In this document: piece after piece, positions 5,842 through 17,141 of the stretch
Layout: the number at the start of each line of letters is the position of its first letter
How positions within the stretch are numbered: the first letter of the stretch is position 1
From: Centipeda artemidis DSM 19719
GTDB lineage: Bacteria; Bacillota; Negativicutes; Selenomonadales; Selenomonadaceae
Assembly: GCF_000426665.1 (NCBI RefSeq)
Contig: NZ_AUFU01000014.1
Location: 1-64,000 of the forward strand
Length of the DNA: 64,000 bases
Direction of reading: 5' to 3'
Translations under genes and position numbers: made by a program
The notes under the pieces: model-generated
What the model saw: the letters and a program-made list of their open reading frames with translations, nothing else
What the model was told of the DNA's origin: nothing
Database searches by the model: none

Positions 5842-6912
5842 TCAGTGTCCCTCTTTCTCATAGAAATAATCGTACGCATCGATGACGTCGAGGAATGCGC
5901 CGTCGAATCCTGCGGCGATGATCTTATCGAGGTACCCGTCCGCCGATCCGTAGAGGAGATCCTGCCAGGCGCGTGTCCAATACCGAACCTTGTAATTGCC
6001 CTCCCAGTCGTCGTTCATCTCATCGATCCAGACGGGCAGGTGCTTGTTCCATTCGTCCTTCCAATAGATGCGGTAATCCTCCGCCTCACCAACGCTCATG
6101 TAGGCAAAGACGAGGCGACGACCGCCGTTTGCCTTGACCTTCAGTGCCTCGACATCCTCTTTCGTGAGCGGGGCATCGTTATAGACAAGATCGATGATAA
6201 GGAGATCGTAGTCCGTGCGGCGCAGCTTCTCTATATAGTCCTCTTTGCTGCGAAACCGCGCAGGGTTCAGCAGCGCGATGAAGTTGCGCACGTCACCGAG
6301 CGAATGCACGTCGCGTGCATTCGCATCGACGATCGTACCGAAGGGAATCTCATCCAGTTCGCGTCGCGAGGCGGCAAAGCCGATGAAGCCTGCCTCTTTA
6401 TTCTTGCGCTGCGAGCCGCGCACGGCGCTGTCCTTATGTGTATAGTCGATGTTGAACACGGGACGGTGCGCTTCGCGTACGAGGCGCAGATTGCGCCGCT
6501 GCTCCGCCTGCTCTTCTGCCGGCGGGGGCAGGTCGTCCTCCATATCCCAACCGTAGAAAAAATCCTCGATGAGCGCGCCGTCAACTGCGTTGAGCAGACG
6601 CTCCACACGATCGCGCGGATGCGTCTCGTCCGGTGCATAGATGCCCGTACCACCGTTCGTAATAAACATAAAGTTCCGTCCGGCAGCGGCGTCTGCATAA
6701 TCATTCATTTCGACGATGAGATCTTCCATCGCCGCGCGGTAGTCGATGCTCTCCGCCTTTGCTTCCGCAGCTTCCTGTTCCGCTCGGCGCTGCTCCGCTT
6801 GTTTCATCTCGCGTTCTGCCCCCGCGTGCATCTCGAAAAAGGAGCAGCAGAACATCCCTGCAATGCCAAGCCCCATGAGAACCGCGAGCGCACAAAAAAT
6901 CTTTTTCACCAT
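5842..6912 (-). CDS. GH114-like (endo-alpha-1,4-polygalactosaminidase/TM1410 family) glycoside hydrolase
   Basis: A 356-residue exported protein. The start at 6912 is chosen because GGGAG lies 4 nt upstream and it gives a clean signal sequence (VKKIFCALAVLMGLGIAG); upstream in-frame codons lack a ribosome site. The C-terminal half contains hallmarks of the TM1410/GH114 TIM-barrel family: FAYMSVGEAEDYRIYW, WIDEMNDDWEGNYKVRYW, and AGFDGAFLDVIDAYDYF with candidate catalytic acids. Characterised family members cleave galactosaminogalactan, and the related hydrolase domain of P. aeruginosa PelA cleaves Pel. It lies just downstream of the pel operon but behind a terminator. I infer that it supplies the PelA-type hydrolase activity missing from the locus deacetylase; substrate is unproven. 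Confidence 0.8.
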   Translation of the reverse strand: MVKKIFCALAVLMGLGIAGMFCCSFFEMHAGAEREMKQAEQRRAEQEAAEAKAESIDYRAAMEDLIVEMNDYADAAAGRNFMFITNGGTGIYAPDETHPRDRVERLLNAVDGALIEDFFYGWDMEDDLPPPAEEQAEQRRNLRLVREAHRPVFNIDYTHKDSAVRGSQRKNKEAGFIGFAASRRELDEIPFGTIVDANARDVHSLGDVRNFIALLNPARFRSKEDYIEKLRRTDYDLLIIDLVYNDAPLTKEDVEALKVKANGGRRLVFAYMSVGEAEDYRIYWKDEWNKHLPVWIDEMNDDWEGNYKVRYWTRAWQDLLYGSADGYLDKIIAAGFDGAFLDVIDAYDYFYEKEGH

Positions 6913-7091
6913 TCCGCTCCCGCCTTGTCCGCCGCACAATCCTCTGCAGCAAACATATACAAACAAACTAAACCTCAGAGTTCTGTAGTCATTCGATAGG
7001 GCATGATAAAATTCCTTCTTTTTCTGAATAAAATCATCCCAAAACTCCTTGTTTTTTCCGAAAAAGTCATGCAAAACAAGAAATTTTAGGC

Positions 7092-7131
7092 AAAAAAATA
7101 GGGTTTGCCTATTCGCATAACCCCTATTTTT
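7092..7131 (-). terminator. Terminator of the pel operon
   Basis: On the minus strand AAAAATAGGG and CCCTATTTTT pair around an 18-nt loop, and the 3' arm runs into seven Ts. It ends the pel transcript after the outer-membrane protein gene and separates it from the glycosidase. The rest of 6913-7158 shows no convincing promoter. Confidence 0.8.
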
Positions 7132-7158
7132 CAGTATTCCTTGGTTGAATCTTCTCCG

Positions 7159-9171
7159 TTAAAAGCTGCGGGAGAACGTGAGCGCTACGCCCCATCCGTG
7201 GTATCGCTCATGCGGGTTCGATCGGTAGAAATACCGTTCCGCGTCGAGCGACAATGCTTCACGGTCGCTAATACGCAGGTCATATCCGACTTGCACGGAG
7301 GTACGCATTTGATCCTCGCCGTTTTCACTATTCAGCGGCGAGATGAATGTCCCCTTCGAGCGCCGATGATGCAGCATAAGGCGCGCCCGCCGGTTCTTTG
7401 AAAGTTCACGCGTCATGCCGATTCCGTAATAGTGCGTAAACGTATTATCGCTGTGCTGCTCCGCGGCCGTCTTGTAAATAGGGGCGCCGCGCAGCTCATA
7501 CATGACATATGCTTTGAACGAATCTTTCTTTGTGTACCGCTTGGTATAGAAGATCCCGAGAAGACCTTCCGCCCCTTCGTGATATACCTCCCTGCTTTCC
7601 TTCGAACGTCCTGTAAATACATTTGTCCGCAGGAATGCCGTCAACCGGTCATTTTTAGCAGCATGAAGGTACCGCACCTCGCCCTCGTAGCGATCTGCAG
7701 GATGCACCGTCGGCGGATCATGCAGATCCATATCGAGCGTATAGTCGTATTTCCCGCGAATCGCATAGGCAAGACGATAATACCACGAATCCGTTTCGTT
7801 GATTTTCCGGCGTATCGTGATGTTCGGCGTCCAGTTCCATCCCTCGCCGAAACGCGTGAGCGCGGCAACCGTATCCGGCACCACGGCGTTATCATGAATC
7901 TGCGCCATGCCCGTCGGCAAATTAACCGAGAGTCCGTAACGGACATCATATCGGTCGTGTTTGTTCCATAAACCGAGATCGACCGTCGTATCGGTAAATC
8001 CCGAGACATGTCCCTGCTTCTTGCCCGTGCGAGAGACGACATACGCGGTACTGACACCGAACTCGAGCTTTCCGTCCGAATAGCTGTAGGAAACGGGGTG
8101 GTAGCGCTGATGCCCAACGCCGCCCTCTCCGCCGTGCCATGCGTAATACTCGATGCCCACCTGTGCGCTGCGCCCCGCAGCCCATCGTGCGAGCTGACGC
8201 ATGGCGGCCGCGTGGTCGCGCTCGGCGAGGGCAAGGTCTGCCTCGCTTTCCGTGCGCGCGGTGCGCGCTTCGCCGACATAAAGTGCCGCCGCGGTAAGAT
8301 CTTTATAGGCCTGATTGAGCTCTTCGTCCGCGTCACGCACTTCTTCCAAAGCGTCTGCGTAATCGCCGCGCGCAGCTTCCTCAGCGTCTTCCGCCGTCTC
8401 AAGGGCGGCGCGCAGCTCCTCGGCGCGCTGTTCTGCGTAGGAAAGTCTCGCCGCTGCACGGTCAAGTGCAACCTGCGCCGCACTGTCCCGTACCTCCGCC
8501 GCCGTACCGGCATCCGCGGCGGGTGCCGCCCCGGATGCCGCCTCCTCCTGCGCGGGGAGTGTATAGAGTCCCTGCTCGAGCTGCTCCATCAGCGGGTAAT
8601 CATAGCCCGCCTGCTGTGCGGCATCCGCAACACGGCGGCGCATCTCATCGGAGGAGATGAGGAGTTTTATCGCATCGTCTCCGCCCGCCGTCCCTGCGGC
8701 TGCGGCACTTGCAGCTTCCGCCGCAGCCTCTGCCGCATCATATTCTGCCTGCGCCGCTTCGAGCTCGGCTGTATAGCTCTCTGCTTCCCGGCGGCGTACC
8801 GCCGTCTCTGCGGTGCGCACGGCGACCATGTTTTCCGTCTCTTTAACACGCTCACGCGCATCGGATGCGCGCATCCGCGCATCGGCGAGTGCTGTCTGCG
8901 TATTTTTATGCTCGTCCTCGGCAGCGGCAACCTCTTCATCCGCCGTTTTCACATAGTCCTCTGCCGTACGCAGATCCTGCTCCGTTTGATGCAGATCGGC
9001 AACGGCGGCGCGATGATCCTCCACTTCCTGTGCAGCGGAGCGCAGGCGGTCGAACTCGCCCTGCACATCGTGCAGAACATCCACAGCCCCGACGGGCGAA
9101 GGCTGCAAAAAAATACTCAGGACGCCGAGCGAAGTGAGGAGCGCCTTATTTTTATAATTGCATCGCTTCAC
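7159..9171 (-). CDS. Outer-membrane beta-barrel with long periplasmic coiled coil; candidate Pel exporter
   Basis: A 670-residue protein, not a recognised family. It has a signal peptide (cleavage probably after PSPVGA near residue 29), then an Ala/Glu-rich coiled-coil region to about residue 330, interrupted near 155-225 by an Ala/Gly-rich stretch. The last ~340 residues alternate polar and aromatic residues in strand-like blocks (for example VGIEYYAWHG, YRLAYAIRGKYDY, KAYVMYELRG) and end in GVALTFSRSF, the terminal Phe expected of an outer-membrane barrel. The start is GTG overlapping the pelG stop (GTGA), so it is the last gene of the pel operon. No pelB or pelC homologue is present, so I infer that it replaces them as exporter, the coiled coil standing in for PelB TPRs. 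Not experimentally supported. Confidence 0.75.
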   Translation of the reverse strand: MKRCNYKNKALLTSLGVLSIFLQPSPVGAVDVLHDVQGEFDRLRSAAQEVEDHRAAVADLHQTEQDLRTAEDYVKTADEEVAAAEDEHKNTQTALADARMRASDARERVKETENMVAVRTAETAVRRREAESYTAELEAAQAEYDAAEAAAEAASAAAAGTAGGDDAIKLLISSDEMRRRVADAAQQAGYDYPLMEQLEQGLYTLPAQEEAASGAAPAADAGTAAEVRDSAAQVALDRAAARLSYAEQRAEELRAALETAEDAEEAARGDYADALEEVRDADEELNQAYKDLTAAALYVGEARTARTESEADLALAERDHAAAMRQLARWAAGRSAQVGIEYYAWHGGEGGVGHQRYHPVSYSYSDGKLEFGVSTAYVVSRTGKKQGHVSGFTDTTVDLGLWNKHDRYDVRYGLSVNLPTGMAQIHDNAVVPDTVAALTRFGEGWNWTPNITIRRKINETDSWYYRLAYAIRGKYDYTLDMDLHDPPTVHPADRYEGEVRYLHAAKNDRLTAFLRTNVFTGRSKESREVYHEGAEGLLGIFYTKRYTKKDSFKAYVMYELRGAPIYKTAAEQHSDNTFTHYYGIGMTRELSKNRRARLMLHHRRSKGTFISPLNSENGEDQMRTSVQVGYDLRISDREALSLDAERYFYRSNPHERYHGWGVALTFSRSF

Positions 9172-10628
9172 ACAAGATCATCCCCTTCCCTTTTCCCGCA
9201 GAGCAGCCGCGAAAGCCGCGTGAGCATTCCATTCGGCGGACGGTAAAAGACCGGACGCGCGCAGTAGACAAAATAATTGATGCGTTTGCAGAAATACTGC
9301 ATCCGCAGGAATGCTCCAATAAAGACAATAGCAGATGCGAGGAAGAATGTAAAGCCGTAACTGACCTCGCCGAAAAATTGTCCGCCCACGCCGAATACAA
9401 TCTGCGCGAAAAACAGTCCGCCCGTGACGAGAAGCGCGCCGCGCTGATCCTCGAAATAGAGGAGCAGTGTATAGACGACCTGCGCCGCTGCGACAAAGAA
9501 CGCACCGAGTACGATGAGATTATACATATTGACCGAACCGAACGAAAGTCCGACAAACGGCAGGAAATAATTGCCAAGGCCAAGAAAAACAACGGTAAAT
9601 ACAAGCTGGAACTCCACGATATTCCGCAGCTCATACCACAGCGTACGCAGCAGATCAATGCGCGCGTCCTCGATGTCGCGGAAATTGCCCCGCTTCGTAA
9701 TATAGGTAAAGTAGACAGCGTAGCGCTCGTAGAAATTCAGCTCTGCCGACACTGTAAACATAACCATAACGGGCATGATTGACAGGAACGCAAAGAAGGT
9801 CGCGACATCATAGGTCGGCGCACAGCGGTACGTGCCGTCGATGAGGATGCCGTCGGGGCCAAGCCAGATGATGAAGTTCGGCATGTAAAGTGCGGCAGTA
9901 TAAAAAAGTCCGATGAAGAACAGTTTCGGGTGCATCTCGAAATACGGCAGAAAGCGGAACGCAAGCCCCTTTTTCGTATAGCCGAAATAGCGCAGGATGT
10001 GTGCCAAAAAGAGCGTCAAAATGACTGCGCTGCCGATATTCATGGCGAGCAGCGATCCGTCGACCGCCGGAAGCAGCCCCGTCCAAAGGACAAGGAAGCA
10101 GAGTGCGACCGAGATAAACACGCCTGCGAGATAGCTGAAAAAGAGTGCCTTATAGTTCTTTACCGCCGTAAGATATACGCCCTGCAGCCAGATGCCCGTC
10201 ATCTGCATGAAGAAAATATAGGTCAGCAGTTTCGTCGAAAAAGCGATCGGCTTATTCCAAAAGAAGAGGACAGCGATGATCGTTCCGAACGGGAGCGTCA
10301 CCGCAGCGATACCAAAAAGGGATGCGGCGATATCCCGATGTTCCCCCCCGTAGAGCAGGTCGGCGAGATAGCGCGTGATGATCATGACAAATCCGCTCGA
10401 GAGGACATGCGAAAATACAAAGGAATAGATCACGGACGCGGTATAGAGCTGCATCTCCGCCTGCGGCACTTCGAATGTGCGGAACATCATCTGTACGGCA
10501 AGCACCATCCCTGCCATCAATACAAAAGGTCCCGTCGTGACGATGGCAGAGTAGCCGTATGCCTTCATATATCCGGCAGCAGAGCGCTCCCGGAACAGTT
10601 TTTTTAGCTCAAAGCCGATGCCCGCCAT
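9168..10628 (-). CDS. pelG: PelG, inner-membrane polysaccharide transporter
   Basis: A 486-residue protein with about twelve membrane helices, opening with MAGIGFELKKLFRE, the conserved N-terminus of PelG, and carrying further PelG-like stretches (WLQGVYLTAVKNYKALF, FYERYAVYFTYITKRGNFRDIE, LLRTLWYELRNIVEFQ). PelG belongs to the MATE/polysaccharide-transporter clan and is thought to move the Pel chain across the inner membrane with PelD, PelE and PelF. It starts 1 nt after pelF and overlaps the downstream outer-membrane protein gene. Confidence 0.95.
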   Translation of the reverse strand: MAGIGFELKKLFRERSAAGYMKAYGYSAIVTTGPFVLMAGMVLAVQMMFRTFEVPQAEMQLYTASVIYSFVFSHVLSSGFVMIITRYLADLLYGGEHRDIAASLFGIAAVTLPFGTIIAVLFFWNKPIAFSTKLLTYIFFMQMTGIWLQGVYLTAVKNYKALFFSYLAGVFISVALCFLVLWTGLLPAVDGSLLAMNIGSAVILTLFLAHILRYFGYTKKGLAFRFLPYFEMHPKLFFIGLFYTAALYMPNFIIWLGPDGILIDGTYRCAPTYDVATFFAFLSIMPVMVMFTVSAELNFYERYAVYFTYITKRGNFRDIEDARIDLLRTLWYELRNIVEFQLVFTVVFLGLGNYFLPFVGLSFGSVNMYNLIVLGAFFVAAAQVVYTLLLYFEDQRGALLVTGGLFFAQIVFGVGGQFFGEVSYGFTFFLASAIVFIGAFLRMQYFCKRINYFVYCARPVFYRPPNGMLTRLSRLLCGKREGDDLV

Positions 10629-10629
10629 C

Positions 10630-12054
10630 CTAGTCCCTCTTTTCCCGTGCGTAGATGTCGCGGTACGAATTGATAAATTTCTCGTAGGTGTAGCTCTGCT
10701 TCACACGCTCATATCCGATCTCGGCCATGCGGCGGCGCAGCGGCGCGTCTTTTGCCATGCGGACAATACCGCGCGACATCTCCTCGTAGTCCATCGCGGG
10801 GACGACGATTCCCGCGTCGCCCATGTCGTCGACGCCCTCCCCGTAAAGGAGTTCGCGGCAGCACCCGACATCCGTTGTAACAAAGGGGCGATGCGCCGCG
10901 AGCCCTTCGAGGACGGCGAGCGGCTGTCCTTCGCTGATACTTGAAAGCAGCAGGAGATCAACCTCGGCGAGGCGTTCGGCAACATTGACCGATCCTGTGA
11001 ACGTGACGTCCTCAAGACGCAGGGTCTCGATCGTCCGTTGGCACAACTCGTAGTATTCGGGATCCTCCTCGTACTGCCCCATGATGAGGAGTTTCGCATC
11101 CGGGATGGACTGCTTCACGAGGAAGAACGCGCGCAGCATGGTCACAATGTCCTTGATCGGCACGACGCGCACGACGGCGCCGATGACGATGCCGCTCTCG
11201 GTCGCTTCCTCCTTAAGCGCGATATGTGCGAATCGCTCCATATGAATACCGTTTGGGACGATGGCGATCTTCTCCGGCGCGCAGCCAAGCGCAATCTCCG
11301 TATCCGCATTTTTCTGAAAGAGCGTGAACACGCGATCCGCCCCCGCATAGGCAAGACCCGCGAGGTTATAGAAATACTGGATCCAAACGGATTTGAAATC
11401 GCCCTCCGCCCATTTGCACTTGAGGATCTCCTCCTCGCGTTCACGGGAGTAAATGCCGTGCTCCGTGATGAGAAACGGCTTGCGATAAACGCGCGACGCA
11501 ACGCCGCCGACAACGCCGCAGTAGCCCGTGGCGACGCTGTGATAAATATCCGCCTCCGGGAAGTCCTGCTGCAGGATGTAAAAGAGCGGCAGGAGCATGG
11601 AGCGGATGGTCCAAAAGAAATCCGTAAACGGCAGATGATCATAGTGCTCGCGGTAGACGCGCTCGATGATGTCGAAGAAGTCCGCGCTCATGAAAATCCC
11701 CATGGCGTCGTGCCGCATACGGTCGCTGCGGAAAATGCCGAGCAGGACGTCCAGATCGAGCGGCACATTGCCGACAACAAGCTCATAAAGGCATACTTTT
11801 TCCTGCGGTGTGAGCGGCTTCTCATTGCGTGACGGCGCACGCAGCGCAAGGATCTCATCGAGGAAGAGCTCACGCACCTCCACGAGGTTCTTTGGTAGGT
11901 TATAGCGAAAATCCCCGCGCTGCTTCATCTCCGCACCAATGGAGTAGACGACGAACTCATGCTCGGGCAGCCCCTCGATGAGCATCTGCACCCATGAGGA
12001 GACACCGCCGACCACATAGGGATACGAGCCTTCGACCAAAAGACAGATACGCAT
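10630..12054 (-). CDS. pelF: PelF, GT4-family glycosyltransferase
   Basis: A 474-residue cytosolic glycosyltransferase. The N-terminus CLLVEGSYPYVVGGVSSWV and the mid-region SVATGYCGVV and LITEHGIYSREREEEI are PelF hallmarks. The GT-B C-terminal domain has the EX7E motif (E375 in ISEGQPLAVLEG to E383). PelF polymerises Pel from a UDP-hexosamine donor. SD AAAGGAGG precedes the ATG. It is embedded in the pelE-pelA-pelF-pelG series. Confidence 0.96.
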   Translation of the reverse strand: MRICLLVEGSYPYVVGGVSSWVQMLIEGLPEHEFVVYSIGAEMKQRGDFRYNLPKNLVEVRELFLDEILALRAPSRNEKPLTPQEKVCLYELVVGNVPLDLDVLLGIFRSDRMRHDAMGIFMSADFFDIIERVYREHYDHLPFTDFFWTIRSMLLPLFYILQQDFPEADIYHSVATGYCGVVGGVASRVYRKPFLITEHGIYSREREEEILKCKWAEGDFKSVWIQYFYNLAGLAYAGADRVFTLFQKNADTEIALGCAPEKIAIVPNGIHMERFAHIALKEEATESGIVIGAVVRVVPIKDIVTMLRAFFLVKQSIPDAKLLIMGQYEEDPEYYELCQRTIETLRLEDVTFTGSVNVAERLAEVDLLLLSSISEGQPLAVLEGLAAHRPFVTTDVGCCRELLYGEGVDDMGDAGIVVPAMDYEEMSRGIVRMAKDAPLRRRMAEIGYERVKQSYTYEKFINSYRDIYAREKRD

Positions 12055-12069
12055 GTGCCCCCTCCTTTC

Positions 12070-13881
12070 TCACTTAAAACGGATCTCAGCCGTCGGTTCC
12101 TTTACCTCGACGATATATGCCGCCTGGCCAATGTTTTCGACGGTGCATCCCGCGACCGCCTCCGGCTTTTTATGCGTGCGCAGAATATAGCGCGGCGGCA
12201 CACGGTAGTTCCAAGAGATGATACGCATCTCGTCCCCTTCGCGCTCGATACGGCAGTCGAGATCGAAATACGCGCCGAGCATCGCCGCGGCTTCCGAAAC
12301 CGTCGCGCCGCGCAGCCACGGGTACTGCTCCTGCGTGAACTTCATAAAGGCATCCATGCCCTCGTTCATCTCACGCCATGTCGTATGGGCGCTTTCCTCG
12401 TAAAAGATCTCGTCGGGATGGACGAAATGCGAGACGATCCCCTGGGTATTGATTACGTTTACGATATCCCAAAGCATGTCCCCGCGCACAATATAGCCGG
12501 AACTGACGCGCGGAAATTCGTAGCTCCCGTCCGCATTACGCTGAAAGTCCTGATAGTAGGCGCGGTCCTCGGGCATCCCCATATAGAGCGCCGCGATGAT
12601 CTTCAGATCCGGGAACACCTCTTTGAGCGCCTCCTTGCCCTCGGGACTGAGGATGTTGGACGGCGGCACATAGGTACGTATTGCGTAGTCCGGATATGCC
12701 GAGGCAATATAGCGGCGCAGTTCGCGCAGAGACTCCTTCATATCCTCGGGACTTGCCCACGGCGTATAGTCCAGATGTTCCTGATTGTACCCTGCGGGCG
12801 CGAGCGGCTGATGGTTATAGCCGTGGATACCGAGCTCACCGCCGGATTTGAGGAGTTCGCGTCCGTACGCGATGAGATAGCTGCGCGTGTAGCGGTCGCT
12901 CATCGGGGCAAACGGTCCTTTGACCTGGTTGCCGTACGTCTCAATGACAACACCTGTGTACTTAAACCCGTAGCGTTTGGCATTGGCGAGCATCTGCGGC
13001 CACCATACATTGCGGTAAAAATCCGCCGTCGTCAGGTGAACCTCGTCGTAGAGGCGCGGGAAGATCCCCACGGGGACGGGCGCGGGAAAATCGTCAATAA
13101 TAAAGACCTTTGCCCCCACAGTTGGATAGACATAGGTGTCCGACGTCAGGCTCAGTATCCCCGCAAGGAGCCCGACATTCGGCTTATCCGCCATGCGCTG
13201 CCCGTTATAAACGACGTATTTCCCTGCTCCTGAGGGCATCTCCCAAACCAGCGGCGTCCCATCGTCCGCCGCCGCATGGATCTGCACCGCCGAGTCAAGT
13301 GACACCGCCGCCGTCGTCGTCTGATATGACCGCCCGCTGACGCCGATCGACTGTACCCCGAAGATGATGTCCGAGGTCATATGAATGCCCTCACGCGTAT
13401 AAGACTCGCCAAATCGGTGGACACCGATGCGCTCGGCAAAGCCTGCGGGTACCCCCGTATCGGAAAGCCCGTCGAGAAAGAGTGCCGTGCCGCCGTCCGC
13501 GACATACTGTTCGATCTGCGGCAGAGCGGCAACCGCGCCGATATTTCCTGTGGTCACAAGCACGCCCATATAGCGGCGGTCGATCTCCGGGACGGCGCCG
13601 ATCTCCGCCGCGAGCGTCGCTTTTTTCTGCTCCCGGATGAACCGCTCCAGATAATGTTTCAGGAACATGCTGCGCAGATTCATCGGATCATAGAGGATGA
13701 GGAACGTCTCCCGTTCGAGCGCCTTGTCCTCTTCCGAGCCCTCGACAAGCGCGCCGTTTGCGCCAAAGTTTTCATGGATATTCGTGCTGAGCTTCATAAA
13801 GCCGTCCGTGCGGTTGTACTGGAAGAACAGCCCCAGCAAAAACACAATCAGAAAGGCGGCGATAAAATTCCGTTTATACAT
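12070..13881 (-). CDS. pelA: PelA-type polysaccharide deacetylase (DUF2194, hydrolase domain absent)
   Basis: A 603-residue protein with one N-terminal membrane anchor (~6-22), a flavodoxin-like/reductase-fold region (~55-240) and a carbohydrate-esterase-4-like domain. Deacetylase motifs are visible: acidic pair D263-D264 in FIIDDFPAP, H353-x3-H357 in GIHGYNHQ, YVPPSN, and VSHFVHPDE. It would partly deacetylate the Pel polymer in the periplasm. The N-terminal glycoside hydrolase found in proteobacterial PelA is missing, as in Gram-positive pel operons (PelA-DA form). The start at 13881 lies in ATGTATAA, overlapping the pelE stop by 8 nt. A separate GH114-like gene lies ~5 kb downstream. Confidence 0.9.
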   Translation of the reverse strand: MYKRNFIAAFLIVFLLGLFFQYNRTDGFMKLSTNIHENFGANGALVEGSEEDKALERETFLILYDPMNLRSMFLKHYLERFIREQKKATLAAEIGAVPEIDRRYMGVLVTTGNIGAVAALPQIEQYVADGGTALFLDGLSDTGVPAGFAERIGVHRFGESYTREGIHMTSDIIFGVQSIGVSGRSYQTTTAAVSLDSAVQIHAAADDGTPLVWEMPSGAGKYVVYNGQRMADKPNVGLLAGILSLTSDTYVYPTVGAKVFIIDDFPAPVPVGIFPRLYDEVHLTTADFYRNVWWPQMLANAKRYGFKYTGVVIETYGNQVKGPFAPMSDRYTRSYLIAYGRELLKSGGELGIHGYNHQPLAPAGYNQEHLDYTPWASPEDMKESLRELRRYIASAYPDYAIRTYVPPSNILSPEGKEALKEVFPDLKIIAALYMGMPEDRAYYQDFQRNADGSYEFPRVSSGYIVRGDMLWDIVNVINTQGIVSHFVHPDEIFYEESAHTTWREMNEGMDAFMKFTQEQYPWLRGATVSEAAAMLGAYFDLDCRIEREGDEMRIISWNYRVPPRYILRTHKKPEAVAGCTVENIGQAAYIVEVKEPTAEIRFK

Positions 13882-14779
13882 GATGCGCGATCCCCTCATC
13901 CCAGAACCGAATGACGTTCAGCGCCTCAATGGAGAGCCGGATCGGGCACGCCTTGAGTTCTCGTATTTTCTCCTGCATGAGCGCGGGACGATGCGTTGCT
14001 TGATAGAGCTCGATATAGAGGAGATAGGGCTGCTCCGCCGTCGGAAAATGCGCAAGAAAAGCGCGGCATGTTTCCTCTGCCGCTGCATAACGCTCCAGCC
14101 GGATCTCCTGCCGTACCTTCTGCACATACAGCTCAGGGCGATCCGGCTGCAGTGCGATCAGGCGTGCAAGCACCGCCACGTGCTCCGCCGCCTTTTGTAG
14201 GCGTGAGAGGCGATCGATAAAACGCTGCTGCGTATATTCGCCGAGCGCCTCAGCATAGGCTTCGAGGTGCTGAACCTCGTCCGGCTCTTCTTTCACACGC
14301 CGTTCAAGCGTATAGAGACGCTCCTCGAGTGTATCGAGCTGTGACGTGATCATCGTGATGGCATAATGCGCAATCTCGCGATCCTCGTCGTGAATTGCCT
14401 GCTGCAGGACGAGCGGGTTCTGCAGAACATCGCGCTTGATGGTCTCGGTAAAGAGCCTGCGTTTCACTTCGGGATCATCGACAAGCACCGAATCGTTCAG
14501 CGGCACGACATTCGCGTCGATGCGCATGAGGTCGGTAAAGATCACTTCCTTGTTCTGGAGCTTGTCGCCGACATCCGCCGGCCCTTGAAGACGGGCGGCC
14601 AGGAGAAATTTTGCCCCGATCAGGGTCAAGAGACCAAAGACAGGGATCAAGAGCACAATACCTGTCTCCGCCGCATTCTGCACAGGCTTCTTCCTGCGCC
14701 GGTTCACAGCGAAAAAGATCCCCGTGACGAGCAAATGAATGAGGATTTCCCACCAGTAAAACTGCATCACCGCATTCAT
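13874..14779 (-). CDS. pelE: PelE-like membrane TPR protein
   Basis: A 301-residue protein with two N-terminal membrane helices (~7-25 and ~38-60) flanking a basic loop, then an all-helical region with TPR-like repeats (~110-290, e.g. HVAVLARLIALQPDRPELYV and AAEETCRAFLAHFPTAEQPY). This is the size and topology of PelE, which pairs with PelD in the inner-membrane synthase complex. It overlaps the upstream pelD fusion by four bases and the downstream pelA gene by eight, so all three are likely translationally coupled. Sequence identity to PelE cannot be judged here; position and architecture carry the call. Confidence 0.82.
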   Translation of the reverse strand: MNAVMQFYWWEILIHLLVTGIFFAVNRRRKKPVQNAAETGIVLLIPVFGLLTLIGAKFLLAARLQGPADVGDKLQNKEVIFTDLMRIDANVVPLNDSVLVDDPEVKRRLFTETIKRDVLQNPLVLQQAIHDEDREIAHYAITMITSQLDTLEERLYTLERRVKEEPDEVQHLEAYAEALGEYTQQRFIDRLSRLQKAAEHVAVLARLIALQPDRPELYVQKVRQEIRLERYAAAEETCRAFLAHFPTAEQPYLLYIELYQATHRPALMQEKIRELKACPIRLSIEALNVIRFWDEGIAHHV

Positions 14780-16959
14780 GATGCCACCCGTATGCTCGCG
14801 ACGCCCTTTTCCTTCAGGCGCTCCTGCACCATGGCAACGATCTTGTCGGTCACGTCGGTCAGCAAAATCTGCGCCACACTGCCGACCTGACCGATATAAT
14901 CCTCAGCGCGGACAACGCCCGTAAGCTTTCCATCGAGCGCCTGCCAGTCGCCGTTTGCCACGTCGAGGTTCAAGTAGACGAGCGACATTGCCGTCTGCGG
15001 TGCTGCGGCGCGCTCCTCCAGCTCCTCAACGATGCGCCGGTACTGCTCTTCGCGCAGAATACGGCTTGTCCCGGGAAGGAAGCGCTTCTCCTGCACTGCC
15101 TGCTCATAGAAATAGGCATGACCGATCGCCGTCGCGATCAGGCGCGCCGTCATGGAGAGCAGGTTCTGCCGATAGAACGTCCAAAGGTCAAAATCAAGCG
15201 CATGAAGTTCCACGACCGCGATGACCTCATCCTCGTAGATAATGGGCGCAGCGATGTCCGGCATCCCCGCCTTGAGCTGACGATTCACAAAGAGGCGCTT
15301 GTCCGCAATCATCTCGCGCAGATACGGCGTCTCCTCCACCTTGAGCGAGCGCGGGAGATCCTCAACCGCAGAGCCGCGGCGGATCTTTTGACGGAAATAC
15401 CACGGATTCGATCCTTTGACATAGAGGACGACATTCTCCGCCTCCATAATCTCCGCCGTGACCGCAACCGCCTGTGTAAAGACGTTCTCCGGCTCCACGC
15501 TGTCAAGGCGCTTGACGATGCGGTAAACGCGCCCGATGCTGTCGTTGGAATTCGTGATCTGACGATAGAGTTTGTCCTTGATCTCAATGCTCTCCTGGTA
15601 CATGGCATGCAGGAACTCATAGCGCTCGAGCGCGCGGCTGCGCTTGTAGCGCTCGTCCTCCAGCTCGCGGTCACGCGTATCCGTAATATATCCCGTGAGA
15701 ACTCCCATAAAGAGATAGGACGCAAAATGCAGTAAATATTCCGGTAAATAGAGCAGAGAAACAACATCCGTCCCGCCGATCAGCAGCGAATAGCCCAGCA
15801 GCAGGCTTGCAAGCCCTACGGCGGGAAGGGAATGCTGCTTGCCGTAAAGAAGTCCAAGAACCGCGATGTAAATATAGTTAAAGTCCATACGGATCATACT
15901 GTTGACGGTGTTGCCCTGCCATACGACAATGCCCGCAGCCGCGGCAAACAGCCCTGCATGTTCCAAATAAGGCAGGATCTTGTTCCACAGTTCTTTGCGT
16001 TGATCCGCCGCCTGTACGGCGGCATCACGCTTTGCCTTTTCTTTGAGGTAATTTTGGTACCAGTCGTAGGTGCGCCGAAGACCTTCGGCAAGCGGCACAT
16101 TCACGCGCCATCCAAGCTCATTGCGGCAGACGGAATTATCCAGGACTGCACGCCCAAAGGACAGTGCCGGATTCTCCGGTGCCCCCATAAAACTTGTGGG
16201 ACGCACGGGGAATATCTCTGCGGCACATTTTTCAAACGCCGCATAGGACACTGCCGTATTCGACGATATATTAACAACATCCGCAGCATGGTTGCGCTCC
16301 GCCGCACTGTATATCGCATAGGCGGCATCGTCAATGTAAAGAAAATCGCGCGTCTCATCGGGCGATCCGAAAAACTCGTAGGACTTGCCAAGAAGTGCCT
16401 GCATGATAAATTTTGCAACAAAGCCATGCGTTGGCAGCTGTCCCGGGCCATATATTGTCGATAAGCGCAGCACAGTCACACGAAGGTCAAAATTCTGTCC
16501 CCAGCGGCGTGCATACTCCTCGTTTACATATTTCTGCATCGCACGCAGATGCCCCGCCGTCTCCCCATCTTTTCCGGGATCCTTGGCATCCGCAGCGAAC
16601 ACGGAACCCGTCGATATCAAGAGAAACTTCCCCACATGGTATTTCGTAGACAGCGCGAGCATATGAGCGAGCCCCGGAAAATTCACGCCCGCATTCTCTA
16701 GGTACGCCCCGCTCTCAAGCGCGGTTGAGCGCTCTGCAAGATGCAGAACCACATCAAAATTGCGCACACGAAAAACTTCCTCACAGCGCTCGTCCAACAC
16801 ACTGTAAGGATAAAAACGATGTTTTGCCTTGAGCGGTTCCATCGGCTCGGAAGTTCCGTCGTCGATGATGTGGACTTCCCATCCCTCTTTGGCAAAACAC
16901 GCAGCGGCTGCGCGTCCAAGGAAGCCATACCCGCCCGTCAATAAAACTCGTTTTTCCAT
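14776..16959 (-). CDS. pelD: SDR epimerase-like domain fused to PelD (c-di-GMP receptor)
   Basis: A 727-residue fusion. Residues 1-~308 form an extended short-chain dehydrogenase/epimerase fold (GGYGFLG at 9-15, ISTGS at 115-119, LSTIYGPGQ at 166-174). Aligning to the usual YxxxK puts RAMQK (139-143) there, so the catalytic Tyr appears replaced by Arg. Residues ~332-424 hold four membrane helices, ~490-615 a GAF domain, and the C-terminus a degenerate GGDEF domain in which GSVAQ (693-697) replaces GGDEF but the I-site RxxD is kept as R684-A-E-D687, exactly five residues upstream. This matches PelD, the inner-membrane c-di-GMP receptor that activates PelF. The start at 16959 follows GAGAGGA; an ATG at 17013 has no ribosome site. 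Confidence 0.9.
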   Translation of the reverse strand: MEKRVLLTGGYGFLGRAAAACFAKEGWEVHIIDDGTSEPMEPLKAKHRFYPYSVLDERCEEVFRVRNFDVVLHLAERSTALESGAYLENAGVNFPGLAHMLALSTKYHVGKFLLISTGSVFAADAKDPGKDGETAGHLRAMQKYVNEEYARRWGQNFDLRVTVLRLSTIYGPGQLPTHGFVAKFIMQALLGKSYEFFGSPDETRDFLYIDDAAYAIYSAAERNHAADVVNISSNTAVSYAAFEKCAAEIFPVRPTSFMGAPENPALSFGRAVLDNSVCRNELGWRVNVPLAEGLRRTYDWYQNYLKEKAKRDAAVQAADQRKELWNKILPYLEHAGLFAAAAGIVVWQGNTVNSMIRMDFNYIYIAVLGLLYGKQHSLPAVGLASLLLGYSLLIGGTDVVSLLYLPEYLLHFASYLFMGVLTGYITDTRDRELEDERYKRSRALERYEFLHAMYQESIEIKDKLYRQITNSNDSIGRVYRIVKRLDSVEPENVFTQAVAVTAEIMEAENVVLYVKGSNPWYFRQKIRRGSAVEDLPRSLKVEETPYLREMIADKRLFVNRQLKAGMPDIAAPIIYEDEVIAVVELHALDFDLWTFYRQNLLSMTARLIATAIGHAYFYEQAVQEKRFLPGTSRILREEQYRRIVEELEERAAAPQTAMSLVYLNLDVANGDWQALDGKLTGVVRAEDYIGQVGSVAQILLTDVTDKIVAMVQERLKEKGVASIRVAS

Positions 16960-17112
16960 CGTCACGATCCTCTCATACCGCGCTCTATCGGCGACTACAA
17001 AAACATCGCTCATATTGATATTATCGTCTGTTTTCTCAGATAATAAAGGACTTATATCCTATTTTATTTCATCTCCAAAGAGTACTGTAAAACCTGATTA
17101 TAGATATTTGTT

Positions 17113-17141
17113 ATTGTATATGAAAACGAATAAACAATCAA
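17113..17141 (-). promoter_or_regulatory. Promoter of the pel operon
   Basis: On the minus strand TTGATT (17141-17136) and TACAAT (17118-17113) are 17 nt apart. The start would be near 17106, leaving an AT-rich leader of about 147 nt. The leader holds a weak hairpin (AGGA/TCCT within ~17045-17070) but no recognisable riboswitch. Confidence 0.7.

Follow-up and report, generated by a model that had tools for sequence, protein, structure and literature searches.

We analyzed a window of 64,000 nucleotides (nt) from Centipeda artemidis DSM 19719 (class Negativicutes; contig NZ_AUFU01000014.1, positions 1 to 64,000), in which seven genes on the minus strand, running from 17013 to 5842, encode PelD, PelE, a PelA deacetylase, PelF, PelG, an outer-membrane barrel protein here named BAR, and a hydrolase. 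The explanation that best accounts for the whole, and that we consider rather probable, is a Pel exopolysaccharide operon in which BAR does the work of PelB and PelC, with the BAR family serving other polymers as well. The parts of this explanation differ in strength: at the level of sequence, the presence of a Gram-positive-type pel operon (pelDEADAFG) is secure, BAR is the likely exit of Pel, and seven loci outside pel support a wider role, in which BAR would be the general exit for exopolysaccharides in Negativicutes. The operon is probably the Gram-positive kind of Pel system fitted to a two-membrane cell and controlled by cyclic di-GMP (c-di-GMP). A preliminary description of this DNA had proposed a Pel export route unlike those of proteobacteria and of monoderm bacteria, and this proposal is supported: PelB and PelC were not detected and the barrel is conserved with the operon, while the export step itself is what we infer. 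The occurrence of BAR beside non-Pel synthases, the permuted GH191 fold of the hydrolase encoded in the conserved cluster, and the pseudo-epimerase domain of PelD are additions to that description.

The features of the locus, all on the minus strand, are as follows.

17097..17141, minus: promoter-like sites 5' of the operon (9-10 of 12 matches)
14776..17013, minus: PelD, with an N-terminal SDR epimerase-like domain, a membrane segment, a GAF domain and a degenerate GGDEF-like end (Pfam GAF match; motif and alignment)
13874..14779, minus: PelE-like protein with TPR (TPR_14, 24.6 bits, cut-off 23.5; position and conservation)
12070..13899, minus: PelA deacetylase of the PelADA type, CE26-like (DUF2194, 428 bits; match to 9zau with E 1.7e-77)
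10630..12054, minus: PelF glycosyltransferase, GT4 (NF038011, 361 bits, cut-off 100)
9168..10628, minus: PelG inner-membrane exporter (PF16933, 417.5 bits)
7159..9171, minus: BAR, with a signal-peptide-like start, two long acidic helices and a C-terminal outer-membrane barrel (conserved family; AlphaFold2 model)
7092..7131, minus: terminator-like hairpin with T run in the gap between BAR and hydrolase genes (fold -13.9 kcal/mol)
5842..7074, minus: putative endo-alpha-1,4-galactosaminidase, GH191/GH114-like and circularly permuted (GH114/TM1410-type profile match)

Co-Occurrence of BAR with Pel in Negativicutes

PelG was found above the cut-off in 59 of 380 genomes of the class Negativicutes. 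By counts read off the listings by eye, BAR (at least 100 bits) is present in 58 of these 59 genomes versus 9 of the 321 others, which include two genomes with PelG under the cut-off (G079 and G247); the associated Fisher p of 1e-57 ignores kinship and is suggestive only. The 100-bit threshold was chosen after the list had been seen; in the range from 42 to 100 bits there are only the matches in G286 and G288, each the second fragment of a gene included in the count already. The BARc profile was built from the same genomes, and the first detection, for which the window protein was the sole query, found matches in 19 of 60 relatives. In the genus to which the window belongs, PelG and BAR are both present in 6 of 14 genomes and both absent in the other 8. 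The preliminary description had placed a barrel in the position of PelB and PelC, and the comparison across Negativicutes bears this out, the barrel being conserved with the operon.

Among 40 fetched PelG loci, a BAR gene was labelled by BLAST in 36; in another (L054, 8899-12303, genome G046) PelG, coil and barrel form one in-frame fusion, a single frame of 1135 amino acids (aa) with a signal-peptide-like segment at the junction, and in L055 only the coil is present at a contig end. A second collection of 80 named loci, found by PelF, was sorted by record title into 36 Negativicute loci and 44 others, the latter including two metagenome bins titled Actinobacteria and Bacillota. After exclusion of loci with less than 2 kb following PelG or with no PelG (6/36 and 1/44, respectively), BAR is encoded in 29 of 30 Negativicute loci; in 28 of these it directly follows PelG among the labelled genes, and many show a 4-nt PelG/BAR overlap. 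None of the 43 other loci, which are mostly from Bacilli, encodes BAR. The genome set and the named-locus set share many contigs, and their BAR counts are therefore not independent. In a 398-genome sample of the phylum, every match to the barrel part falls in the class Negativicutes; weak matches outside the class, which reach 37.7 bits at most and extend no further than model position 353, involve the coil, and we did not count them as BAR.

Rearranged loci were also observed. In L058 (10194-14025, G031) an open reading frame (ORF) of 476 aa, possibly an insertion element, splits the BAR gene into two frames, and the rearranged pel locus L080 (G025) has the hydrolase and two deacetylase-like frames between PelG and BAR.

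Search for Other Outer-Membrane Exits

A separate pelB or pelC elsewhere in the genome had been named beforehand as evidence that would speak against the proposed route. In the host genome, which is 99.86% complete, neither could be detected: the PelB barrel PF24604 and the PelC profile were each found in 0 of 16 Negativicute genomes including the host, with 4/4 and 2/2 proteobacterial control records positive, respectively. This genome set includes, of the six genomes with non-Pel BAR clusters described below, only G046. The BcsC barrel PF05420 was found in 0 of 12 genomes, among them all six with non-Pel synthase clusters, and the E. coli control was positive. BAR itself has no match to PF24604, PF05420 or TPR.

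BAR Genes beside Other Polymer Synthases

Seven BAR loci in six Negativicute genomes lie in polymer-synthesis clusters outside pel. In L180 and L182, BAR adjoins a GT2 synthase with PilZ; L182, which is the second BAR locus of the genome with the PelG fusion (G046), also encodes MBOAT and AlgX-like proteins, and the start of its synthase gene is overlapped by the BAR stop codon. In L177 and L178, BAR follows a BcsB-type gene and a GT2 gene, together with genes for DUF2334 and GGDEF proteins. In L179, L184, and L181, the genes clustered with BAR include those for a GT2 and a deacetylase-like protein; in L181 and L184 the GT2 gene lies 3.6-4.1 kb from BAR, and the deacetylase match in L181 is below the cut-off. 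The Pfam scan covers five of the seven loci (L178, L180, L181, L182, and L184), and L177 and L179 share their arrangement with L178 and L184, with barrel identities of 66% and 86%, respectively. The stretch of a further locus, L185, is too short for its neighbors to be judged, and the locus of G126 was not opened. The BAR family is thus not Pel-specific and seems to provide Negativicutes with a general outer-membrane exit for their synthase-dependent exopolysaccharides. We call BAR an exopolysaccharide exit chiefly because it is associated with several polymer synthases.

The clusters in L178 (GT2, BcsB, DUF2334, and GGDEF genes) and L181 (GT2 and deacetylase-like genes) are uncharacterized and may make new polymers.

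Model, Fold, and Charge of BAR

The gene at 9171-7159, described earlier as encoding a coiled-coil outer-membrane barrel, is real, in that its product belongs to a conserved family and has a signal-peptide-like start, a C-terminal Phe, a predicted coiled coil and 16 predicted strands; the only Pfam match is a weak one to a barrel family (PF13557, 24.7 bits). The AlphaFold2 model, built from an alignment of 25 sequences, has a mean predicted local distance difference test (pLDDT) score of 80 and a predicted template modeling (pTM) score of 0.63. It contains a disordered start, helices at residues 33-158 and 221-328, and a barrel at 333-669, for which we count 16 strands, with 388-392 merged with 395-404; this strand number is that of PelB, BcsC, and PgaA. 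At a rise of 1.5 Å per residue the helices would measure approximately 190 and 160 Å, respectively. The segment 158-222 is mostly below pLDDT 50, and from the model we infer that the two helices may pack as a hairpin stalk.

Foldseek matches of BAR include BcsC (9b8h and 6tzk), PelBC (9h80), and 4y25, titled polysaccharide secretin, among many porins, with BcsC and PelBC ranking among the best; we take 4y25 to be PgaA. In the VIA comparison, PelB is matched with Z 18.6 (root-mean-square deviation 5.6, 310 aligned residues) and BcsC with Z 18.5 (4.5, 290 aligned). As modeled, BAR is an outer-membrane barrel of exporter size, and its fold does not single out export.

The stalk of the window protein carries a net charge of -37 over 296 aa. 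The mean stalk charge per 100 residues is -11.4 in 25 Pel-linked proteins versus -7.3 in the seven encoded beside other synthases, and the mean barrel net charge is -5.2 versus +7.7, respectively, the window barrel having +7; the p-values for these differences (0.005 and 0.001) treat related sequences as independent and are suggestive only. If charge guides a cationic chain, the stalk is a likelier place for this than the barrel.

Many BAR proteins of Selenomonadaceae, for example those of L176 and L187, have at least one copy of an Arg-rich motif (RMSRKRRR or RMTRKRLR) ahead of the signal-peptide-like segment; the motif is not present in the window protein.

Proposed Export Route and Alternative Explanations

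We propose that PelF would polymerize N-acetylgalactosamine inside the cell, PelG would carry the chain across the inner membrane, and PelA would partly deacetylate it. The acidic helical stalk of BAR may then guide the resulting cationic chain to the BAR barrel, through which it would leave the cell, BAR thereby filling the role of PelB plus PelC, while the hydrolase would trim or release chains. In Negativicutes, the BAR family would also serve other synthase-dependent polymers, replacing the TPR-barrel exporters PelB, BcsC, and PgaA. To this we add, at about an even chance, that BAR represents a distinct class, namely an acidic-stalk barrel that spans the periplasm, docks on the synthase or exporter, and replaces both the TPR scaffold and the accessory lipoproteins, and that is common to at least four chemically different Negativicute systems.

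Several observations weigh against the proposed route. One PelG-positive genome lacks BAR (G262, which is 81% complete), and two others, G016 and G236, carry BAR on a contig separate from the pel locus. In L179 and L184, approximately 1 kb with an opposite-strand ORF separates the deacetylase-like gene from BAR, and in L176 and L183, from two genomes, BAR occurs without a synthase in the stretch opened. The VIA matches of BAR to PelB and BcsC tie within Z 1 with those to the unrelated barrels BamA and CymA, and fold search was dropped as proof of export. Profile alignment detected no sequence homology between the BAR barrel and the PelB barrel, the best probability against four PelB barrels being 4% with small profiles of little power. 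Finally, the inward-facing strand residues of the window barrel comprise 14 acidic and 18 basic ones, and across the family inward acidic residues are more numerous than basic ones in 13 of 25 proteins, equal in 3, and fewer in 9. Since there is no consistent acidic excess by this estimate from alternating strand residues, an anionic lumen like that of PelB, whose interior is described as negatively charged (PMC12141448), is not supported.

A lumen that is not clearly anionic and the unlinked BAR genes could also be understood if BAR were an outer-membrane tether or scaffold for the synthase complex or the polymer, similar to OmpM, with its coil bridging to peptidoglycan and the polymer leaving through a different, unlinked porin; OmpM is described as both tether and channel of diderm Firmicutes (PMC10628300). 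However, no S-layer-homology domain was matched in BAR by Pfam, no PelB- or BcsC-type porin was found, and the loci opened contain four kinds of synthase cluster with no other recurrent BAR neighborhood, and we consider a tether rather unlikely. An exit function of BAR would be retained if the locus made a polymer other than Pel, such as a differently linked or modified hexosamine chain. This would fit the 32-35% identity of PelF to proteobacterial PelF among the 30 plasmid rows listed, the loss of the catalytic Tyr and Lys from the PelD epimerase domain, and the inactivity in published tests of TM1410, the nearest solved relative of the hydrolase. We nevertheless regard it as improbable: the characterized system closest to this one, of the B. 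cereus type, is reported to make a Pel-like polymer (PMC7112168), the catalytic residues of the deacetylase and of the galactosaminidase are kept, and GalE is encoded above the cut-off elsewhere in the host genome.

It is very improbable, in our judgment, that BAR is a passenger, that is, a porin gene that came to lie beside pelG in an ancestor by chance and was kept by linkage. Any conserved neighbor could arise in this way, gene order being inherited and the counted genomes being related; however, BAR is absent together with PelG from 8 of 14 genomes of the genus, it occurs in clusters of unrelated synthases, it is joined to PelG by one in-frame fusion and by frequent 4-nt overlaps, and an unlinked BAR persists in the two genomes whose pel locus has none beside it (G016 and G236).

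The literature covered, which consisted of titles and abstract openings with few subscription papers, describes neither BAR nor a Pel exit in Negativicutes nor such barrels beside synthases. If BAR is indeed such a distinct class of exits, diderm Firmicutes would have equipped monoderm-type polymer machines with a single shared exit. A common TPR-free exit in Negativicutes would show how a two-membrane Firmicute exports the polymers of machines known from one-membrane relatives, it would bear on the evolution of these envelopes, and it would define a route of biofilm export for Selenomonas and related bacteria.

Operon Boundaries and Core Pel Proteins

The order pelD-pelE-pelA(deacetylase)-pelF-pelG on one strand with overlapping starts, as described earlier, agrees with the gene calls and family matches. 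PelF and PelG homologs are adjacent, and the PelA deacetylase in this D-E-ADA-F-G order lacks a hydrolase domain, as in Gram-positive-type operons. The homology of PelF and PelG, whose failure in profile searches had been named beforehand as a ground for rejection, holds (NF038011, 361 bits; PF16933, 417 bits). The genes are closely packed: there is a 4-nt overlap of PelD with PelE and a gap of 1 nt between PelF and PelG, and the GTG start codon of BAR overlaps the pelG stop codon by 4 nt. An outer membrane of the host is confirmed by an LptF/LptG domain protein encoded at 5697-4588 and by an Omp85 match (137 bits) in the genome.

The proposal of a terminator at 7131-7092 is borne out by a hairpin and T run that look genuine, although the terminator scan did not list them; because the hairpin sits between the BAR and hydrolase genes, the latter may form a separate transcription unit here. 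A strong promoter had been proposed at 17141-17113. A site is present there with 9 of 12 matches, and two overlapping promoter-like sites ending at 17097 have 10 of 12; however, the stretch holds 14 such sites versus 7.5 (standard deviation 3.2) in shuffles, and thus the strength of the promoter is not established.

The seven residues of B. cereus PelADA (D262, D263, H350, H354, R458, H488, and D491) all have counterparts in the window by motif or alignment, so that the catalytic and metal positions D269, D270, H359, H363, R464, H494, and D496 are retained; the code 9zau occurs in PMC13254593, on B. cereus PelADA. Among proteins of at least 590 aa, these seven residues are the same in all 30 from Negativicutes and in 41-43 of the 43 from other hosts. 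The FPR pattern as such is seen in 3 of the 30 Negativicute deacetylases, yet the aligned Arg is present in all 30. PelF and PelG homologs are reported in Selenomonas sputigena strains and as absent in S. lamontii, which forms no surface biofilm and differs in other genes too (PMC13339959), and lower pelF and pelG expression is reported in F. nucleatum co-culture (PMC9848294).

PelD and Its Pseudo-Epimerase Domain

The epimerase-like domain of the window PelD retains the Rossmann motif TGGYGFLG and has lost the Y-x3-K pattern, which is found in this segment in 2 of 27 Negativicute versus 41 of 41 other proteins. An epimerase-PelD fusion is described in PMC7112168, which reports an active-looking form from Brevibacillus and altered forms from clostridia, streptococci, and actinobacteria; the text of that paper does not mention Negativicutes or Selenomonas.

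At the C-terminus, an RxxD I-site (R702 and D705) lies five residues ahead of GSVAQ. Among PelD proteins of at least 600 aa, RxxD is present in 27/27 from Negativicutes and 40/41 from other hosts, the PelD of L152 having no residues at this position; it is also present in 2/2 fusobacterial proteins. PF00990 (GGDEF) did not match the PelD C-terminus, whose GGDEF-like character is known by motif and alignment alone, and six GGDEF matches over the cut-off are encoded elsewhere in the host genome. We predict that the window PelD is a c-di-GMP receptor.

A Permuted GH191-Like Hydrolase

The hydrolase is numbered from the first start codon at 7074, although translation may in fact begin near 6912. 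Its two halves match those of TM1410 in swapped order, the C-terminal half of the hydrolase corresponding to the N-terminal half of TM1410 and vice versa. In the profile comparison, positions 251-334 align with 9euz_A 61-140 and positions 39-171 with 9euz_A 147-276. The model (pLDDT 88) forms a full TIM barrel, as judged from secondary structure and from matches to unrelated TIM barrels over residues 129-403, and sequential aligners recover the match with TM1410 only in the C-terminal part, beginning at residue 226 or 260, at 1.8-2.6 Å. The catalytic pair of TmGH191, D156/E225 (PMC12054363), corresponds to D396 and E170, which are invariant in 18 of 18 hydrolases. By these alignments, the hydrolase is a circular permutant of GH191 with both catalytic residues kept. 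The GH166 domain of PelA, considered as an alternative family, matches one half and weakly (5tcb, E 1.5e-4), and GH191 is matched far more strongly.

The hydrolase is encoded in 34 of 40 loci of relatives, mostly directly after BAR and in three ahead of PelD. The hydrolase of the F. vincentii pel locus is also permuted, its second match being weak. One GH191 enzyme is reported to cleave Pel, whereas TM1410 was inactive in published tests (PMC12054363). Circular permutation is not mentioned in the papers covered, which include PMC12054363 and few subscription papers. The permuted form would be a new scaffold of this Pel-cleaving enzyme family.

Comparison with Known Systems

Outer-membrane export of synthase-dependent polymers is described as proceeding via TPR proteins with 16- to 18-stranded barrels (PMC9601211 and PMC12141448). 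BAR resembles the PelB/PelC pair of P. aeruginosa in its expected job and in that a single chain is modeled to contain both a helical periplasmic part and a 16-stranded barrel; it differs in having no PF24604 or TPR match and no detectable homology, in a host where no PelC was found, and in a lumen that is not anionic by estimate. Its modeled strand number is that of BcsC and PgaA, BcsC being among the best fold matches and BAR being clustered with GT2 synthases in some genomes; however, BAR has a coiled-coil stalk instead of TPR, PF05420 was found in none of the 12 genomes searched, and the PgaA family was not searched for. The hydrolase matches GH191 (TM1410 and Env-GH191; PMC12054363) in both fold halves and both catalytic residues, with the order of the halves swapped.

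The core order, the hydrolase-free deacetylase, and the RxxD I-site are shared with the B. cereus pelDEADAFG operon (PMC7112168), and the epimerase-PelD fusion is like that of Brevibacillus, streptococci, clostridia, and actinobacteria (PMC7112168). In contrast to the B. cereus type, the host is diderm and the locus contains BAR, which is found in none of the 43 other loci. As a separate observation, the pelFG locus of a Sulfitobacter plasmid (L088, 6325-12400) is preceded upstream by an OPX-type polysaccharide biosynthesis/export gene, and the stretch contains no gene with a PelB-like annotation.

Fusobacterial pel loci (Cetobacterium and F. vincentii; L084, L085, and L092) come from diderm hosts and, as here, have PelG followed by a stand-alone barrel-like gene. 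Unlike BAR, the encoded protein has 305-316 aa, no coil, and no detectable homology to BAR (profile probability 0.1% for three fusobacterial barrels, with small profiles of little power), and the fusobacterial PelD lacks the epimerase domain of the window protein. At their C-terminal ends, fusobacterial PelG proteins (L084, 10409-12520, and L085, 10415-12733) have a hydrophobic stretch, the lipobox-like sequence LSGC or LGGC, and repeats rich in Gly, Asp, and Asn. PelG exceeds 650 aa in 27 of the 44 other loci, in at least L150 through an N-terminal extension, and the three long Bacilli-type proteins examined (L127, L131, and L138, from Paenibacillus-type hosts) all carry, in the same chain, a lipobox-like segment and, as matched by Pfam, a CotH kinase domain. 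We hypothesize that the place after PelG is where each envelope type adds its outer module.

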